From Desulfuromonas sp. (GTDB lineage: Bacteria; Desulfobacterota; Desulfuromonadia; Desulfuromonadales; BM103), in contig VEPG01000093.1 in the NCBI GenBank assembly GCA_012026975.1, positions 1 through 64,000 on the forward strand: DNA of 64,000 nt, in the 5' to 3' direction. Below are positions 28,225 through 31,187 of this stretch, in pieces; position 1 is the first letter of the stretch, and the number at the start of each line of letters is the position of its first letter. Below the pieces are notes generated by a model, which was given only the letters and a program-made list of their open reading frames with translations, did not search any database and had not been told where the DNA came from. The translations under genes and the position numbers were made by a program.

Positions 28225-28273
28225 GTAGAGGCGCAATTCATTGCGCCCAGGGCGTGATAAATCACGCCCCTAC
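28225..28273. repeat. GTAGRGGCG inverted repeat, copy 8
   Basis: 49-bp element, GTAGAGGCG to CGCCCCTAC, nearly the same as copy 5. On the minus strand its TAG (28270-28272) is the stop codon of the DUF1015 gene. Confidence 0.85.
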
Positions 28274-29604
28274 GCAGAGATCCTTCTGCACTCCAGATAA
28301 AAGCGCTTCTCGTCGGCCTCCCCCATGGAGAAGGTCTTGCGGGCCAGGGCGCCGTCGTGCACCACGGTGCGGAACAGGTCGTGCTTGGAGATGGCCGGTA
28401 GCAGGAAGCCGACGGCGTCGGTCGGAGCACTGAGCCGCTCGACCGCATCGGCGCCGTGGATATAGTCGATGTGCCCGCGCGTCCCGTCCGCCAGGTAGTC
28501 GTCGAGGAATTCCTGCAGGGTGGCCACCGCCAGCGTCAGGTGCGGGCGAAGCACGGTCAACAGGCCATGCCGGCCACCGGCGATAAACGGAATGGCGTGG
28601 CTCCCCGCCGGGGCGGCGTCCCGGGCGACAGCCGCTGTCGTGGCATCGGCCAGCCAGTCGACCCGACACGGCGTGCCGGCGGCGGCAAAGTAGTGTTGGG
28701 CACTGGCCAACAGATCGGCAGCGTCGACCTGGAAGAGGACGCGATGGATCGCTTCGAATTCGAGACCGGGATCGTGGACGTTGACCAGTTCGACCAGCGC
28801 GTAGCGCGCCGGATGATCCATGATCGCCGCCGGATCGGGGGCAGCCGCCTTGAGCTGCTCCCAGATCACCTTGGCGGTGGCGAAGCTGTGGTTGCCGTCA
28901 CCCATGGCATAAAGCATGACGTGCTCGCTGCCGTAGCGCTCCTGGAAGCGCTGCGGACCGGCCAGTCGCTCCAGGGCCTTGCCGATCTGCTCGATGACCG
29001 CCGGCTCGTCGACGTGCCAGCCGCGCAGGCGCCCGCCGTGCTTCATCAGTTCGAAGTCGTAAAGCACCGGCAGTTCGTGCTCGAAGAGCGGTTCGATGAC
29101 GGTGCGCTCGGGATCGTCGATCAGCACCATGATGTGCGGCAGTTCGATCGGCGCCTGTTCGCGCACGCGGATGCGCGGCGGCAAGCGATCGAGGATCGTC
29201 CCCTCGGTGGCACGGATCAGCGTCTGCGCTCCGGGACGGTAGTCATAGTGCTCCAGATCGAGGGCGACCATCAGCCCCTTGCGCGACGGCACGTGGATGG
29301 TCTGCCGGTCGAGCAGGACAAAGCCGGGGGGAAGTTCCCGCAGGGTGCCATCGGCGAGATAACGGTCCATCGCCGCGTTGATCGCCGCAATCCGGGGCGC
29401 CTCGTCACCTTTGCCGAGAAACACTTCGGGGAAGGTCAGGCGCAGGGTCGACGGCGCATCCCCGACCAGTTGATCAACCGCCGCCCAGTATTCGGGCTCG
29501 GCGGTATACTGGTCGCAGGCGATCACCGTCCAGCGGGTCAGGTCGATACCATCGCGGGGAAACAGGATGGTCGGCACGTGCAGGGCAAGCTTGGCAAGAT
29601 CCAT
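28270..29604 (-). CDS. DUF1015 family protein (serC-linked)
   Basis: 444-residue protein of the DUF1015 family, found next to serC or serA in many bacteria but without an established reaction. Visible conserved blocks are [36 protein letters not shown] and, most strikingly, [15 protein letters not shown], where Asp, Asn and His could form an active site. [21 protein letters not shown] lies near the C terminus. ATG 29604 has GAGG 5 bp upstream. Its TAG stop comes from the adjacent repeat. Clustering with serC and serA suggests a link to serine or phosphohydroxypyruvate metabolism (inference only). Confidence 0.88.
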
Positions 29605-29670
29605 GGCAACCTCGTCGGGGTTCGAAAAGCAAGCGCGCAATATACAATTTTTCGCCGGTCCTGCCAAGCC

Positions 29671-30690
29671 TCACAACCTCTTGCCGGCTACCGCCACGAA
29701 CTCACGCAGCTTGGCCATCATCGTCGCGAATTCGGCGGGGCGCAGCGACTGGGGGCCGTCGCTGGCGGCCTTTTCCGGGCAGGGGTGGACCTCGACGATC
29801 AGGCCGTCGGCCCCGGCCGCGACCGAAGCGTAGCACATCGACGGCACCAGATGGGCATGGCCGGTCGCATGGGAGGGGTCGATCGTCACCGGCAGGTGGG
29901 TAAGGCTCTTGAGCACCGGCACCGCGCTGATGTCGAGGGTGTTGCGGGTGGCGGTCTCGAAGGTGCGGATGCCGCGCTCGCACAGGATCACCCGGCGGTT
30001 CCCCTCGGCGAGGATGTATTCGGCGCTCATCAGGTATTCCTGGATGGTGGTGGCCATGCCGCGTTTGAGCAGGATCGGCTTGTCGATGCGGCCGACGGTT
30101 TTGAGCAGGGCGAAGTTCTGCACGTTGCGCGCGCCGATCTGCAGAATATCGGCATAGTCTGCCACCAGGTCGACGTCGCCGGGGTTGACCACTTCGGTGA
30201 CGATCGGCAGGCCGCTGGCCTCCCGCGCTTTGGCGAGCAGCTTGAGGCCATCCTCTTCCATCCCCTGGAACGAATAAGGGCTGGTGCGCGGCTTGAACGC
30301 CCCGCCGCGCAGCACCGTGGCGCCGGCGGTCTTGACCGCGAGGGCGGTCTCGACGATCTGGGATTCGCTCTCCACCGAGCACGGCCCCGCCATGACGATG
30401 ATCCGCTCGCCGCCGATGGCCAGCCCCGGGGCGATCTCGAAGGAGCTCGGCTCGGGCTTGATCTCGCGACTGGCCAACTTGTACGGCTTGAGGATCGGTA
30501 CCACGCTCTCCACGCCGGGGAGCGATTCGAGGGACTGCAGCACGGTCTTGCCGCGCTCGTCGCCGACCGCGCCGATAACGTTGCGGGTCTCTCCGTGGAT
30601 CACGTGCGGTTTGTAGCCAAGTTCGCGGATCCGCTTCTTGACCTCGGCCAGCGCTTCCTTGCCGGCCCCCTGCTTCATGACGATGATCAT
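29671..30690 (-). CDS. aroF: 3-deoxy-7-phosphoheptulonate (DAHP) synthase, type I-beta
   Basis: 339-residue first enzyme of the shikimate pathway, joining phosphoenolpyruvate and erythrose 4-phosphate. An N-terminal ferredoxin-like regulatory domain ([20 protein letters not shown]) precedes the barrel. Barrel motifs are [59 protein letters not shown] and [11 protein letters not shown]. The N-terminal domain in related enzymes gives feedback inhibition by aromatic amino acids. AAGG lies 5 bp before the ATG. About 250 nt of leader upstream encodes a Phe/Tyr/Trp-rich peptide and a terminator, so expression is likely controlled by attenuation. DUF1015 follows in 66 bp. Confidence 0.96.
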
Positions 30691-30735: not shown

Positions 30736-30779
30736 GAACGATGGAGGGCCGCCCGGTACACCCGACGGCCCTCTCGTTC
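30736..30779. repeat. second inverted repeat in the aroF leader
   Basis: Imperfect stem between terminator and aroF start: GAACGA...GAGGGCCG (30736-30751) with CGGCCCTC...TCGTTC (30766-30779), 14 pairs with a 2-nt bulge. There is no T-run, so it may shape the 5-prime untranslated region near the aroF ribosome binding site. Confidence 0.55.
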
Positions 30780-30791
30780 ACTCCTGAAACG

Positions 30792-30828
30792 AAAAAAACC
30801 ACGGGTGGCCTCAAGCCTGCCCGTGGTT
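30792..30828 (-). terminator. attenuator terminator ahead of aroF
   Basis: On the minus strand AACCACGGG pairs with CCCGTGGTT (9 bp) over an inner GGC/GCC stem, followed at once by seven T. It stands about 100 nt before the aroF start codon and 28 nt after the leader peptide stop. The 5-prime arm (CGGGCAGGC portion, 30815-30823) is also perfectly complementary to GCCTGCCCG in the leader peptide codons (30872-30880), giving an alternative antiterminator stem. These are the parts expected of amino-acid attenuation. Confidence 0.85.
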
Positions 30829-30855
30829 TGTCTGGTGATGCCGCTAACGCAACCG

Positions 30856-30942
30856 TCAGCAGACCAGTCCCCGGGCAGGCCAGCCAAAATAGCCGGTAAA
30901 CCCAAAGAAGAAGCCCGCGTAAAACCAGTTGCCGTAGTGCAT
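30856..30942 (-). CDS. aromatic-rich leader peptide of aroF
   Basis: 28-codon open reading frame starting MHYGNWFYAGFFFG and ending GLVC, then TGA. It contains six Phe (three in a row at 11-13), three Tyr and two Trp: 11 aromatic residues in 28. GGAG and GAGAG lie upstream of the ATG. The last aromatic codon is Trp21, just before the segment (codons 22-24) that pairs with the terminator arm. This peptide would act as a sensor: ribosomes stalled on uncharged tRNA-Phe or tRNA-Tyr leave the pairing segment free. Gene finders miss it because of its size. Confidence 0.8.
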   Translation of the reverse strand: MHYGNWFYAGFFFGFTGYFGWPARGLVC

Positions 30943-31030
30943 TGCCGCTCTCACTCCACTGTTAAGTCCGCTATCGATAACAAAAAACCGCCGGCAACGC
31001 AAGGGGGAAACGGCACGACTCCCTTTTCAC

Positions 31031-31072: not shown

Positions 31073-31148
31073 GCCCAGGTAGCTCAGTCGGTAGAGCAGT
31101 GGACTGAAAATCCACGTGTCGGCGGTTCAACTCCGTCCCTGGGCACCA
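31073..31148 (+). tRNA. tRNA-Phe (anticodon GAA)
   Basis: 76-nt cloverleaf including an encoded CCA. The acceptor stem GCCCAGG pairs with CCTGGGC. D-arm GCTC/GAGC, anticodon stem GTGGA/TCCAC with loop CTGAAAA (anticodon GAA), and T-arm GGCGG/CCGTC with loop TTCAACT are all intact. It is divergent from the aroF attenuator, whose leader peptide is rich in Phe codons. Confidence 0.97.
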
Positions 31149-31156
31149 GTAAAACT

Positions 31157-31187
31157 AGGGGTTGCGTCTGACGACGCAACCCCTTTT
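31157..31187 (+). terminator. terminator of tRNA-Phe
   Basis: 12-bp stem beginning AGGGGTTGCGTC, loop TGAC-like, complementary arm GACGCAACCCCT followed by TTTT. It lies 8 bp after the tRNA. Confidence 0.85.

Follow-up and report, generated by a model that had tools for sequence, protein, structure and literature searches.

Known and probable leader-peptide attenuators near aromatic genes

Ribosome-mediated attenuation is a classical mechanism. Its standard layout, as in Escherichia coli pheA and pheST, has one terminator, and the his leader folds through chained alternative pairings, A to F. The pheA (pheL) and pheST leaders encode Phe-rich peptides and use a terminator/antiterminator switch that responds to charged Phe-tRNA (PMC11802643). 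They share the Phe-rich leader with the locus described here, but the genes under their control encode prephenate dehydratase or Phe-tRNA synthetase rather than DAHP synthase. In Corynebacterium glutamicum, the aroR-aroF region has a Phe-Tyr-Phe leader before the DAHP synthase operon, and read-through increases when Phe is limiting (PMC11802643, citing Neshat et al. 2014). It is alike in being a leader peptide attenuator upstream of a DAHP synthase gene; it belongs to another phylum, is likened here by description, and has no linked second terminator mentioned in that account.

Additional hairpins are also known. The his operon leader of Salmonella and E. coli contains one beyond the simple four-segment scheme (PMC1183508), but it precedes a single terminator, whereas here two hairpins, 3:4 and 5:6, are both terminator-like in most relatives. 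The rimP leader has a tandem second terminator upstream, and some Gammaproteobacteria have a potential antiterminator there as well (PMC2965389); these terminators are located before rimP, and that account mentions no aromatic leader peptide. In Desulfovibrio vulgaris, an attenuator upstream of the aroA' supraoperon comes from a database of predictions (PMC1173090, table 7). Like loci L172, L265 and L284 below, it stands before an alternative-pathway aromatic gene; unlike them, it is described in that part of the source with neither a leader peptide nor linked tandem hairpins. In the open literature, with subscription papers mostly not covered, no report was found of aromatic leaders in Geobacter or Deltaproteobacteria, of the present leader family, or of linked tandem terminators governed by a leader peptide. 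Attenuation of DAHP synthase is already known elsewhere; the phylum-wide family and the linked tandem design appear to be new.

The locus lies within a 64,000-nucleotide stretch of Desulfuromonas sp. DNA, referred to as the window. We assign a probability of about 0.85 to the reading that DAHP synthase is controlled here by a transcription attenuator of the ribosome-mediated kind, which senses charged Phe-tRNA and to which Tyr and Trp probably contribute. As predicted from the sequence, it contains what trp-, phe- and his-type attenuators contain, namely a frame rich in end-product codons with a ribosome binding site, an intrinsic terminator and a pathway gene downstream. Covariation, a partner-swap test and modelled folding add an antiterminator that is exclusive with the terminator and is hidden once a ribosome has reached the stop codon.

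Architecture and modelled folding of the aroF leader

The features of the locus are as follows.

31073..31148, plus strand: divergent tRNA-Phe(GAA) gene, a conserved neighbour
30954..30957, minus strand: GGAG, ribosome binding site of the leader, eleven bases 5' of the ATG
30856..30942, minus strand: leader peptide frame with stop, ATG to TGA, 28 codons, encoding MHYGNWFYAGFFFGFTGYFGWPARGLVC; an equivalent frame is found in orthologs of the order
30869..30881, minus strand: segment 2, GGCCTGCCCGGGG, the antiterminator strand inside codons 21-25; 12/13 pairs with 30826-30814, and covariation
30814..30829, minus strand: segment 3, AAACCACGGGCAGGCT, the 5' arm of terminator T1 and its flank, with segment 2 or segment 4 as alternative partners
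30796..30808, minus strand: segment 4, the 3' arm of T1, partner of segment 3 and alternatively of segment 5
30792..30798, minus strand: T1 U-run, seven T
30744..30773, minus strand: hairpin T2 (segments 5 and 6), GAGGGCCGTCGGG-TGTA-CCGGGCGGCCCTC, lacking a U-run in the window's genus
29671..30690, minus strand: aroF, DAHP synthase, the controlled gene (PF00793, E 3.9e-81; PF18152)
28270..29607, minus strand: DUF1015 gene (PF06245), likely co-transcribed judging by spacing and shared strand, followed by serC and serA

The leader contains six Phe, with FFF at positions 11-13, three Tyr and two Trp. When the 400 nt upstream were shuffled 3000 times with dinucleotides preserved, short frames of 15-32 amino acids with at least 11 aromatic residues arose in none (0/3000), and the leader folds with z = −3.8. 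Against Rfam, in the window and 12 related loci, tRNA alone reached the gathering threshold, and no known amino acid leader, T-box or riboswitch was matched.

T1 lies 3' of the leader stop codon, with arms AAACCACGGG (30829-30820) and CCCGTGGTTT (30805-30796). The initial annotation had placed a 28-codon aromatic-rich frame with a plausible ribosome binding site before aroF and a terminator with seven U after it; its coordinates and residue counts are right, and T1 ends in seven T at 30798-30792. It had also proposed perfect complementarity of codons 22-24 to the terminator. The match is a nine-base one and begins a base earlier: GCCTGCCCG, which starts with the third base of codon 21 and ends with the second of codon 24, is the exact complement of CGGGCAGGC (30823-30815), within and beside the T1 5' arm. 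The extended pairing, given as 11 of 12, comprises 12 of 13 pairs, one of them G-U, between codons 21-25 and CCACGGGCAGGCT at 30826-30814.

In partition-function folding of the window locus, T1 formed with probability 0.95 when the ribosome stood at the stop codon and 0.015 when it was stalled at the middle aromatic codon. The value was again 0.95 when the stall was only at the last aromatic codon. It was also 0.95 with no ribosome present, where the fold pairs segment 2 with upstream sequence. A stall affects T1 in this model only if it comes early enough for codons 21-25 to stay free. Over 113 leaders, the mean equilibrium probability of T1 fell from 0.94 to only 0.65 on mid-leader stalling, and therefore many loci would need kinetic folding or trapping as well. 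For a protector hairpin 1:2, the best-paired helix carried no compensatory changes.

We infer the following response to tRNA charging. When aromatic amino acids are sufficient, the ribosome would reach the leader stop codon and cover segment 2, segments 3 and 4 would pair as T1, and transcription would end after a short leader RNA. A stall on aromatic codons would leave segment 2 free to form the 2:3 antiterminator, so that RNA polymerase reads on. An effect of this read-through on the DUF1015 gene, serC and serA is plausible from the gene spacing.

Conservation of the leader and its helices

DAHP synthase orthologs were collected across the family and order, and the DNA upstream of them was inspected, leaving out L008, which is cut by a contig end. 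A leader with at least six aromatic residues was present in all 114 usable regions upstream of aroF orthologs, which represent 21 families of the order, and was lacking at the DAHP synthase paralogs examined. These leaders span 23-34 codons and average 7.1 Phe, 1.4 Tyr and 1.2 Trp, with Trp present in 112 of the 114. Such a composition suggests that sensing is mostly of Phe, and the near-universal Trp hints that this third amino acid may also play a part. Comparing codons within genera was not informative (at aromatic positions, an aromatic residue was kept in 136 differences and lost in 338; elsewhere, 206 synonymous and 747 nonsynonymous). Comparison of the leaders indicates that aromatic content is conserved, rather than each position. 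T1 is clear in all loci of the order but one, being weak in L047 (family f4).

Both alternative helices covary. In an alignment of 53 sequences, 82.7% of the cells of antiterminator 2:3 were paired, with both bases altered in seven pairs; for terminator 3:4, 90.6% were paired and eight pairs had altered in this way. Sliding the partners by 1-3 columns reduced the paired fractions to 28-45% and 37-56%, respectively. Exchanging partners between families weakened both 2:3 and 3:4 (0/1000 each), and a control stretch from these leaders showed no effect (724/1000).

Of 277 genomes in the class, 253 had a match to a covariance model of the element; in the phylum sample the count was 79 of 297. The order genomes lacking a match are those lacking a full-length close ortholog among the orthologs listed. 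In named genomes the matches sit directly upstream of aroF; the matching relatives include Geobacter argillaceus, Geomonas propionica, Oryzomonas japonica, Desulfuromonas sp. and Smithella sp. The weakest matches in the phylum may be due to chance, as with L288, which has no leader frame. This distribution would extend leader-peptide attenuation to the Desulfuromonadales and their relatives, including metal-reducing genera such as Geobacter, and suggests that this conserved control over entry to aromatic biosynthesis is ancient.

These comparisons bear on two other explanations of the leader. The frame and hairpin could have met by coincidence at an ordinary intergenic terminator, and indeed a simple consensus scan recognised no promoter. 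This explanation is contradicted by the comparative data, because they show a leader conserved in every usable ortholog region and mutually exclusive, covarying helices; with the shuffling result added, we regard it as having practically no chance of being right. The leader could instead work through its nascent peptide, as an arrest peptide sensing a small molecule, rather than by codon-specific stalling. A FWYGFYFRPSARG-like part of the peptide does recur across many families, but this stretch, the peptide's tail, coincides in part with segment 2. Genus g44 has a tail that differs in both sequence and frame (CATCGACCCG), and its T1 arm is altered to match (CGGGTTGATG); pairing, and not the peptide tail, is therefore what is kept. 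Aromatic content is also maintained while the remaining peptide varies, and the aromatic make-up differs with the target gene. An arrest peptide is thus improbable.

The comparative tests and modelled folding instead support codon-specific attenuation, as the initial annotation had proposed. The comparison of relatives suggested there found both conserved aromatic codons (114/114 leaders) and covarying 2:3 and 3:4 stems. Its scheme, in which starvation for Phe or Tyr stalls the ribosome and frees the pairing segment, holds in the model insofar as a stall on mid-leader aromatic codons abolishes T1; the amino acid sensed is likely to be mostly Phe.

The second hairpin and its proposed link to T1

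Between T1 and the gene, most families have a further G+C-rich hairpin, T2, which the initial annotation had not noticed. T2 is followed by a U-run in 71 of the 82 order loci that have it. The U-run is missing in all three loci of the window's genus, where T2 may be just a hairpin, and T2 itself is absent from several families. When 12 genomes were searched with a strict T2 pattern, which variant T2s escape, the only two exact matches lay at this locus. Within the reach of that pattern, there was no support for T2 as a terminator repeat dispersed through the genome.

Segment 5, the 5' arm of T2, is complementary to segment 4, the 3' arm of T1; examples are CCAGCCCGTGGCC with GGCCGTGGGTTGG in L167 and AACCCATGGCTT with AAGCCGTGGGTT in L170. 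Across 36 families, the 4:5 duplex averaged −17.6 kcal/mol with a family's own partner vs −14.3 kcal/mol with the partners of other families, an excess of 3.2 that was reached in 0/10000 permutations, which take no account of phylogeny. The matched control 3:6, which has the same phylogeny, was itself above chance in these 36 families (excess 1.3, 1/10000), and 3:5 showed essentially no excess. T2 (5:6) also covaries, and 4:5 covaries in excess of the controls. Pairing of segment 2 with segment 5 gave no signal in the swap test (307/1000).

We infer from this pairing a double lock, in which one sensor would set two linked terminators, OFF being 3:4 with 5:6 and ON being 2:3 with 4:5. Segment 4, once freed by the antiterminator, could pair with segment 5, so that the decision taken at T1 would disarm T2 as well. 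Any polymerase slipping past a T1 that has formed would run into an intact T2. Provided that the link between T2 and T1 is real, one ribosome position could be enough to set both terminators, giving less leak with no lowering of the induced level.

T1 could also be an attenuator as proposed while T2 is independent of it, either a backstop hairpin or a stabiliser of the mRNA 5' end, with the 4:5 complementarity a by-product of similar arms. Consistent with this are the families that lack T2 and the window's genus that lacks its U-run, the partial excess of the 3:6 control, and an anchored 4:5 test within the order that was weak at the family level (639/5000). Pairing 4:5, which a chained leader of his type would form in its ON state, also seldom wins over 5:6 at equilibrium, where free segment 4 pushed T2 below one half in only 18/68 loci. 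With a shuffled segment 4, however, this occurred in 1/68, and 4:5 was stronger than 3:6 in 22/25, 32/33 and 27/36 sets, in addition to its larger own-partner excess. We consider an independent T2 somewhat less likely than not. A linked tandem terminator, with an ON state that would be set kinetically, is the reading of T2 that we hold with moderate confidence.

Other targets and neighbouring features

Among the phylum loci read, the element stands upstream of DAHP synthase at some and of other genes elsewhere. A leader of this kind, accompanied by tandem hairpins or a terminator, precedes a phenylacetate-CoA-ligase-like (paaK-like) AMP-binding enzyme at L155 (by Pfam) and at L156, L158, L161, L170, L266 and L287 (by sequence likeness). 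Periplasmic binding proteins of LivK type follow the element at L157, L159 and L257 (Pfam) and at L254, L255, L258, L261, L268 and L290 (likeness), some behind Tyr-rich leaders. At L172 (Pfam), L265 and L284 (likeness), the downstream gene is a DeoC/LacD aldolase of the alternative-aromatic-pathway type. The leader of L289 precedes a fusion of DAHP synthase, prephenate dehydratase and ACT. A weak model match at L292 lies before trpE, and its leader, MNNSWWCWAKKEEEVCPVPQ, has three Trp and is probably a trp leader.

The position of these leaders suggests a role for the paaK-like genes in aromatic amino acid supply, and perhaps one for the LivK-type genes in aromatic amino acid uptake, giving both groups a role that can be tested. 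More broadly, we lean slightly towards a single attenuator family that spans the class and parts of the phylum, in which one leader peptide would set two serial terminators through a six-segment chain, and whose targets would be DAHP synthase, paaK-like and LivK-type genes, the alternative-pathway aldolase and perhaps trpE, with aromatic make-up varying by target.

In each genome there is also a second paralog of DAHP synthase, with 50-54% identity and without such an aromatic leader (L024 at G000:C105:53788-54774, and the other L020-L031 loci). The divergent tRNA-Phe(GAA) gene just upstream of the leader is kept in many families of the order, including loci L003-L007, L009-L019, L034, L044, L049, L050, L052, L066, L072, L089 and others. 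Between this tRNA gene and a gene for an NtrC-type regulator lies a 12-bp hairpin (31157-31184) that is terminator-like in both directions.
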